Assembly (NCBI RefSeq): GCF_963675165.1 | Contig: NC_087387.1 | Coordinates: forward strand, 2,097,501-2,161,500 | Source of the DNA: Halichondria panicea | Taxonomy: Eukaryota; Porifera; Demospongiae; Suberitida; Halichondriidae | Direction: 5' to 3' | Length of the DNA: 64,000 nt | Part shown: positions 43,587 through 45,203 of the stretch, piece after piece | Numbering within the stretch: position 1 is the first letter of the stretch | Layout of the letters: each line of letters opens with the position of its first letter | Made by a program: the position numbers and the translations under genes | The notes under the pieces: generated by a model | Databases searched by the model: none | The model's input: the letters and a program-made list of their open reading frames with translations, nothing else | What the model was told of the DNA's origin: nothing

Positions 43587-45203
43587 ATGGCTGAGAAAGA
43601 AGCTCTGAAGAAACTCAATTCTCAACTCGAATGCTCCCTTTGTCTCAACACCTTAAAGCAGCCGAAACTATTGCCTTGTTTTCATGTGTTTTGCAAGTCG
43701 CCGTGTCTGGAGAAACTAGTGACCAAGGATGGACGCTCCCTCACTTGTCCCACTTGCCTACACATTGTCCCATTGTCGAAGAGGGGAGTGACTGGACTGC
43801 AATCAGACTTCCACATTGACCACTTGTTTGAGATAAGAGATGCTTTTAACAAGGCCGAAGGTGATAATGATACGAACTGTGGTAACTGTGAAAATGGCAA
43901 AGCCACTGGGTACTGTAACGACTGTGGGGACTTTTTATGTAACAAGTGTCAAGCTGCTCATAAGAAAATAAAATATCTACGGAATCATAAACTACTTTCA
44001 CTCGATGAACTCAAAGCTCAAATGACTAGCCTGGTCCCTCCCAAGAAGGCTATCCCCCATTGCCCCAAACACTCGGAGAGTGACCTTAAAATATACTGCG
44101 AGACCTGCTCCACTCTCATTTGCATAGACTGCACCATTCGTCTCCACAAAGACCACAACTACGATCTGGTCGCTGATGTGCTGACCAAGCACAAAAAAGA
44201 ACTTGTCTCCAGTCTCAAACCAGTCAAGGAGAAGCTGGATAGTGTACAACGAGCTCTGAAGGGCTTTGACACAAGAGCCAAGGCAATTCGCAATCAGAGG
44301 CCCACAATTGAAGCTGATATCCACAAGAAGATTGACGAACAACATCGACTGTTGGACCAACGAAGGGCAGAGCTTGTTGTAGAGCTAGAGGTGCTGACTC
44401 AGCAGAAGCTAGAGGGTCTGGCAGCACAGAGGGATCAAGTGGAGATCACTCAGGTGAAACTGGCCAGCTGTCTAGAGTACGCGGAGAGCGGTCTCAAAAG
44501 AGGCACAGATGGTGAAGTACTTGAAATGAAATCTTCCGTTCTGAAGAGAGTCGAACAGATTTCCATCGAATTCAATCCTAACACTCTTCAGCCACAGACT
44601 GTGGCTGACATGGAACTGCTCACTAAAAGAAAAGAACCTCTCCAACAAGCTTGTCGATTTTTCTTAGAGATTGGTCGTAGTGGTTTGTTCAGCAGCCTTA
44701 CGGTAGAAGATGGTCTGACAGACGCTACACCTGAAAAAGAAAACACTGTAGTAATGAACAAAAGCAAACTCAACCTTAAAGCTGAACTTGTGCGTATTGA
44801 GAGTAAAGACACATTGAAATGTAAAGTGGTTGAGCACCAACATGACCAGCAACGCATATCAACTCAAGCAAAAAGCATCTGCATGTCTGGTGGATCTGGA
44901 CGTGGCAAAGGAGGAAAAGGACTTGGAAAGGAAGGTGCCAAGCTCCATAGAAAGATTCTTCGTGACAACATCCAGGGAATCACTAAGTCTGCTATCAGAC
45001 GTCTGGCTCGCCGTGGTGGTGTCAAGCGTATCTCTGGACTGATCTATGAGGAGACACGCGGTGCCCTGAAAGTGTTCCTTGAGAACGTCATCCGTGATGC
45101 TCTCACCTACACTGAGCATGCCGAGAGAAAGACTGTGACTGCTATGGATGTCGTCTATGCTCTGAAGAGGCAAGGACGCACTCTGTATGGATTTGGAGGC
45201 TGA
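43587..45203 (+). CDS. TRIM (RING/B-box/coiled-coil)-histone H4 fusion protein
   Basis: Single uninterrupted exon, 538 aa. Residues about 16-60: RING finger (CSLCLN, CFHVFC, CPTC), typical of E3 ubiquitin ligases. About 96-140: first B-box ([17 protein letters not shown]). About 158-198: second B-box ([17 protein letters not shown], then HKDHNYD). About 200-330: coiled coil rich in K/E/Q/L. About 330-430: a region of no recognised fold. Met433 to 538: a full-length histone H4 ([15 protein letters not shown] to YGFGG). Relative to the H4 at 38430, the mature-numbering changes are G13E, R17L, P32S, V57A, V70L and K77E, plus an SGG insertion after the initiator Met. The linker ending AKSIC is the translated former 5' leader of H4. 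No NHL or SPRY domain is present. Start chosen as the first ATG, with the RING directly after it. Confidence 0.92.

Follow-up and report, generated by a model that had tools for sequence, protein, structure and literature searches.

TRIMCyp (TRIM5-cyclophilin A) of primates and rodents is described as the product of CypA retrotransposition into the TRIM5 cluster, with some versions being antiviral (PMC6677749, PMC2924388). For the RING linchpin, it is reported that mutation of R54 in TRIM25 reduces its activity (PMC4864278), and that TRIM6 and TRIM22, with Gln at the linchpin alongside other changes in the RING, are inactive, yet TRIM32 with Ser at the same position is active (PMC11992055). 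Since TRIM32 works with Ser, a charged linchpin is not an absolute requirement. Here we describe a locus from the sponge Halichondria panicea (assembly GCF_963675165.1), in which a TRIM-type N-terminal module is continued by a full-length histone H4. The stretch of DNA analyzed, hereinafter the window, spans 64,000 nucleotides (C11:2097501-2161500 of the 131 Mb assembly; contig NC_087387.1). Among the papers listed, searches of the open-licence literature turned up no TRIM-H4 fusion; a term search of the text of Marin 2012 (PMC3503706) gave no occurrence of 'histone', and the parts of PMC8242945 consulted hold no passage on TRIM genes.

The fused gene is a single ATG-to-stop frame (Table 1), and the other plus-strand frames listed for 42000-47000 have at most 79 codons each. 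The first-pass annotation had proposed an open frame with a RING, two B-boxes and a full-length H4, and this is confirmed by the list of open reading frames, Pfam, and the match of residues 435-538 to histone H4 chains through the last residue (best E 3e-55). It was also right that a TRIM frame is fused to this H4, which takes the place that filamin-NHL has in the paralogues. As for the H4 at the C-terminus, its full length stands, but it is not canonical, there being three extra residues near the N-terminus and six replacements relative to the canonical H4 encoded in the window, H4a (G13E, R17L, P32S, V57A, V70L, and K77E). Likewise, H4 comes after the putative coiled-coil region, but the two are not directly joined, with a filamin stub and eight codons originating from the H4 5'UTR intervening. 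Among the Cys and His residues kept in at least eight of nine paralogues from the cluster of nearest relatives on contig C3, only H235 and H371 are altered, both outside the RING and B-boxes. Pfam recovers neither filamin nor NHL in the fused frame, both of which it detects in the paralogue L010. The fused gene is a TRIM by its N-terminal part and not a TRIM-NHL; nor is it a histone gene, by control or by conservation.

Table 1. Features of the TRIM-H4 locus and the neighboring canonical H4 gene, numbered from the first letter of the window.
Feature	Position	Strand	Remarks
H4a promoter motif	38319..38337	+	also precedes the C15 and C4 H4 genes
H4a TATA-like site	38344..38355	+	motif scan
Canonical histone H4 gene H4a	38430..38741	+	gave rise to the fused H4 or is its sister
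H4a histone 3' stem-loop	38764..38809	+	RF00032, 30.2 bits; gathering score 34; E 4e-7 in a 201-base search
TRIM 5' region remnant, end of predicted exon 1	40031..40054	+	left of the retrotransposon
Non-LTR-type retrotransposon	40055..43477	-	stops ~110 bp short of the TRIM start; poly-T run taken as its left end, by eye
Reverse transcriptase frame of the retrotransposon	40163-42238	-	ORF list, Pfam
TRIM 5' flank	43497..43586	+	common to the duplicate and partly to the C3 paralogues; predicted 3' splice site inside
TRIM-H4 chimeric open frame	43587..45203	+	538 codons, one ATG-to-stop frame
RING finger	43632..43757	+	residues 16-57; Pfam zf-C3HC4; zinc ligands kept
RING linchpin codon (58), encoding Leu	43758..43760	+	Arg in paralogues and TRIM2
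B-box 1	43878..43991	+	residues 98-135; Pfam ANCHR-like_BBOX
B-box 2	44058..44165	+	residues 158-193; Pfam zf-B_box
Putative coiled-coil region	44184..44636	+	bounds inferred from alignment to TRIM paralogues
Filamin repeat stub	44769..44858	+	start approximate; TRIM homology stops at 44858
Linker from H4 5'UTR	44859..44882	+	8 codons; the joint is its 5' end
Full-length histone H4 module including stop	44883..45203	+	matches to histone H4 chains and genomic H4, Pfam
Degenerate stem-loop remnant	45246..45269	+	weak AU-rich hairpin

H4a lies ~5 kb upstream of the fused frame, and its 5'UTR, TCAACTCATCAAGCAAAAAGCATC, is recognizable at the joint, where the H4-derived sequence starts at 44859, i.e., 24 nt before the H4 ATG and within the 5'UTR. 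Compared to H4a, the window copy shows one 3-nt loss and one 3-nt gain in this region. Since the H4a 5'UTR is itself open in the pertinent frame, we infer that the chance of joining in frame was about one in three. The hexamer TCAACT occurs both in H4a and in the C3 paralogues near the break, but the fused copies read ATATCAACT, and a simple 6-nt overlap at the joint misfits unless two extra nucleotides are allowed. A genome search with H4, in which all seven candidates were scored, recovered the canonical H4 genes on contigs C11, C15, and C4, the fused H4, and, in a duplicate of the locus (see below), two pieces along with the tail of that duplicate's canonical-H4 remnant; beyond the window copy and the duplicate, it yielded no further TRIM-H4 locus in the searched genome sequence. 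The three canonical proteins (H4a, C15, and C4) are identical. The C15 gene, which has a 218-codon open stretch, was considered as a possible second fusion; by eye it shows no resemblance. A search with PF00125 (all 24 candidates scored, 13 matches) found no further core histone in the window, and H4 genes look dispersed. Elsewhere in the window there are four frames with IgGFc_binding domains (PF17517; 52916-54381, 56045-57559, 61299-62651 (-)), apparently a local cluster beside TRIM-H4, a ~390 bp interspersed repeat in the 3' flank (46428-46814) with dozens of copies in the genome (40 of 881 candidates scored), and a GC-richer segment with a strong strand skew and two overlapping frames (24223-25052), one of which was run through Pfam and gave no match.

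Turning to the N-terminal half, of 267 candidates for the TRIM part in its own genome, 97 were scored as matches; by our count, the open stretches that hold 83 of these are 717-816 codons long. The closest among the scored matches form the cluster at C3:5.88-6.31 Mb, with 77-81% identity. Frames or frame ends were read at 20 loci (L008-L017, L023-L032), representing 19 distinct genes as L030 repeats L017. By this reading, 16 of them terminate in filamin-NHL, some in broken or shortened form, and the remaining three end in H4 (the fused frame itself), a tyrosine-kinase lobe, and no recognized domain, respectively. Pfam, run on four paralogues, concurs in finding filamin and NHL in L010 and L032, a kinase in L028, and neither in L023. 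The TRIM part was copied at the DNA level from a member of this large TRIM-filamin-NHL family. A retrocopy origin was considered and is rejected, since the duplicate still carries sequence of the C3-type 5' flank and of the predicted intron; the absence of introns is itself uninformative in this regard, since the paralogous coding frames are single-exon.

The size of this family is also apparent from a B-box search (150 scored matches of 406 candidates, on contigs C3, C11, C5, C17, and C13), many of whose matches sit in 720-810-codon frames arranged in tandem clusters. Two members have unusual C-termini. L028:488-2443 (minus strand; C17:4784487-4786442) is a 652-codon open stretch combining a RING and two B-boxes with a tyrosine-kinase domain (PF07714, 192.9 bits) that covers profile positions 56-258, the first 55 being absent, and in which, by eye, the HRD motif is present and the DFG position reads LGE. 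Its nearest kinases, at C2:7.25 Mb, are 49-51% identical, which suggests that this fusion is older than TRIM-H4. L023:1072-2400 (minus strand; C14:5042071-5043399) is a 443-codon TRIM frame with no NHL, filamin, or other recognized C-terminal domain.

Upstream of the ATG, all nine C3 genes have a GTGAGT-like site at a distance of 190-314 nt, that of L011 being at a different place in the alignment, and seven of the nine have a 3' splice-like CAG near the ATG, with L012 and L016 reading CAT. Based on these sites, a 5'UTR intron is predicted. The predicted donor is gone in the window copy at the retrotransposon, and the duplicate reads GTTAGT there; use of an alternative donor or promoter is possible. 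The element is a repetitive one, as its segment 42500-43477 recurs, whole or in large part, in at least 26 other places at 93-98% identity (40 of 460 candidates scored). The description of the gene as single-exon applies to its coding frame, but the paralogues predict an intron in the 5'UTR. The use of that description, along with the intact frame, as an argument against decay is weak: the coding frames of the paralogues also occupy a single exon, the other copy has lost its frame, and the 5'UTR intron, as predicted, harbors a retrotransposon.

The duplicate lies ~87 kb away on C11 (its TRIM-H4 being at C11:2228 kb), where C11:2225543-2236991 matches the window region 37318-52228 in pieces and without the retrotransposon. 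It carries the TRIM and a joint that lacks the later insertions, followed by an internally deleted H4 and then a second TRIM tail with H4. Relative to the window copy, its TRIM has four out-of-frame indels (-10, -2, -7, and +4) and one in-frame indel (-9). The joint is genuine: the same junction in a second, diverged copy argues against an assembly error and, being common to both, indicates that the fusion predates the duplication. In kilobase steps, the copies diverge by 0.2-1.3% along the 3' flank (45 of 6991 sites); the figure is 1.7-5.1% within the gene and 2-8% upstream, with a sharp drop from 3.7-5.1% to 0.2-1.3% just past the H4 stop (44709-52228 against C11:2229386-2236991). This step would fit past gene conversion, an older array with later exchange, or staged duplication.

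Both copies have Leu at residue 58, the position next to the final Cys of the RING, indicating that the residue was replaced before they split. We take this to be the linchpin position (R54 of TRIM25) from its place after that Cys. Arg occupies it in all 18 other distinct family loci read, including the nine C3 genes, and an alignment to structures of TRIM2, the best solved relative of the RING, also sets an Arg opposite Leu58. Three more distant RING-bearing loci have Arg, Arg, and Asn, respectively, the Asn being read by eye in a TRIM-filamin-NHL frame of another cluster (L037:55-2301, plus strand; C5:5629 kb).

The H4 half differs from H4a by 6 replacements, 5 silent changes, and an altered stop codon, as against 0 replacements and 25 silent changes between H4a and the C15 gene, and 0 and 19 between H4a and the C4 gene. 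By this pattern of substitution, it is relaxed and not conserved like a histone. The Pfam scores of the fused versus the canonical H4 are 33.2 versus 33.1 bits for CENP-T_C, 22.2 versus 24.8 for TAF, and 21.0 versus 22.9 for Histone. The promoter motif TACAATGTAGTCGGGTAAA, found in H4a and C15 and with one mismatch in C4, has a single occurrence in the window (allowing up to 3 mismatches), namely that before H4a, with none ahead of the fused H4, where the motif scan also found no TATA-like match comparable to that of H4a. Downstream of the fused H4, there was no match to the Histone3 stem-loop up to E 5. Since no recognizable histone-type control remains, the H4 module is probably made only within the fusion, if at all; likewise, with no histone-type promoter motif ahead, H4-only transcripts from the internal H4 Met look unlikely. 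With Leu at the linchpin versus Arg in the paralogues, and an H4 half without histone-like conservation, the original reading of the product as an established ubiquitin ligase is unsupported.

We propose that this locus is probably a young TRIM-H4 chimera that is drifting, or is at most marginally used or a pseudoligase scaffold; given how relaxed and damaged the locus looks, an established function is unlikely. Under this proposal, a C3-type TRIM-filamin-NHL gene would have been copied at the DNA level, along with its 5' flank, to a site beside an H4 gene on C11. The copy would then have lost its 3' part, comprising the NHL propeller together with the bulk of the filamin repeat, and the break would have been joined to an H4 copy inside the 5'UTR, 24 nt before the ATG, in frame by chance. 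The region would have been duplicated later, with one copy breaking and the window copy staying open. If translated, the product might form a coiled-coil dimer bearing two altered H4 modules on a linchpin-less RING; such a protein, if active at all, would be expected to act as a poor ligase or as a pseudoligase scaffold, with other TRIMs, or H3 and H4 chaperones, as conceivable partners.

A less likely alternative is that this is a working new gene reminiscent of TRIMCyp, wherein the RBCC region dimerizes and H4 serves as a recognition or bait module for H3, H3-H4 chaperones, or an invader's histone-binding protein. The frame is intact beside a broken sister, and Pfam recognizes the fused H4 much like the canonical one, as such a gene would have it. 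The substitutions since the split, polarized for the TRIM half with the nine C3 genes (excluding 10 ambiguous sites, 4N:6S) and for the H4 half by hand with the duplicate, C15, and C4, have some bearing on this. In post hoc tests with small counts, against a neutral share of 74% N computed on TRIM codons, the window branch shows 5N:6S in the TRIM half (P 0.04), 5N:3S in the H4 half (P 0.35; unlike canonical H4, Fisher P 0.0002), and 10N:9S in both halves together (P 0.04), and the duplicate branch 9N:4S in the TRIM half (P 0.45). This hints weakly at purifying selection on the TRIM half since the copies split and favors a working gene, but the H4 replacements fall at positions invariant in the three canonical copies, with a ratio near neutral, the linchpin Arg has become Leu, and a retrotransposon occupies the promoter-proximal region. 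The pairwise dN/dS of the TRIM half against the C3 genes is 0.23-0.38 (0.19-0.27 for comparisons of L009 among the C3 genes); however, the fused H4 and H4a differ by 5 silent changes over 79 silent sites versus a dS of 0.28-0.43 for the TRIM comparisons, so much of the latter time probably predates the fusion. The sites fixed relative to all nine C3 copies (45N:23S) are N-biased by the condition of their selection and were left out of the tests. The post-fusion indels that could be placed in the window frame (at the TRIM start, -12; at the joint, -3, +3, +6, and +3) all have lengths divisible by 3 and keep the frame, as a working gene would require, although this and the open frame are biased evidence, the locus having been picked for its open frame. 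On a clock set by the 3' flank (45 substitutions over 6991 sites, and 16 indels of which 11 are out of frame), 1.5 disabling events are expected on the window branch, and P(0) is 0.23, so that an open frame by chance is no surprise; the higher divergence of the gene would raise the surprise.

Still less probable is a functional truncated TRIM consisting of the RBCC region alone, with H4 as an unselected tail supplying the stop codon; this would account for a purifying signal in the TRIM half and not in the H4 half, but the counts behind that signal are small and the linchpin had already gone when the copies split. We accord slightly less weight to a TRIM with an altered H4 that is kept by selection in this lineage, perhaps as a ligase-dead dimeric scaffold joining H3-H4 chaperone complexes or chromatin, or acting as bait for the histone-binding protein of an invader. 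That a chromatin-related function has been kept is improbable to a like degree and not supported by the evidence. An assembly or haplotype artefact fusing two genes is very improbable, as the joint is common to two diverged copies that both lie within one 6.8 Mb contig.

We favor a young chimera with little or no present use. The locus shows a TRIM-NHL array of very large size undergoing a domain swap, caught soon after the event, when one can still read the families of both donors, the joint itself, the decay of the sister copy, and how the histone's own controls were lost. If drifting, it would illustrate how TRIM arrays make chimeras, and that an intact fused frame by itself is weak evidence for function. 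If TRIM-H4 is instead a kept gene, then together with the TRIM-kinase frame it would mark the TRIM array as a recurrent source of C-terminal module swaps.

Among known systems, the RBCC region of TRIM-H4 is homologous to that of TRIM-filamin-NHL proteins of the TRIM2/TRIM3/TRIM71 type, from which it differs in having the filamin domain cut to a stub, no NHL, and no linchpin Arg. Like replication-type H4 genes, it has a full-length H4 frame, a piece of the 5'UTR, and a diverged 3'UTR; unlike them, it has no promoter motif or stem-loop of its own, it bears the replacements and extra residues noted above, and the N-terminus of its H4 is not free. It resembles the pseudoligases TRIM6 and TRIM22 in the replacement of the linchpin by an uncharged residue; their inactivity is ascribed by the authors to the linchpin together with a destabilized RING core (PMC11992055), whereas TRIM-H4 is known from its sequence only. 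As in TRIMCyp, a TRIM N-terminal module is followed by an unrelated small cellular protein at the C-terminus, but here a DNA copy of a TRIM has been fused, inside a single exon, with an H4 gene. If TRIM-H4 proves to be expressed and kept, the C-terminal module of this TRIM would be a core histone, a case akin to TRIMCyp.
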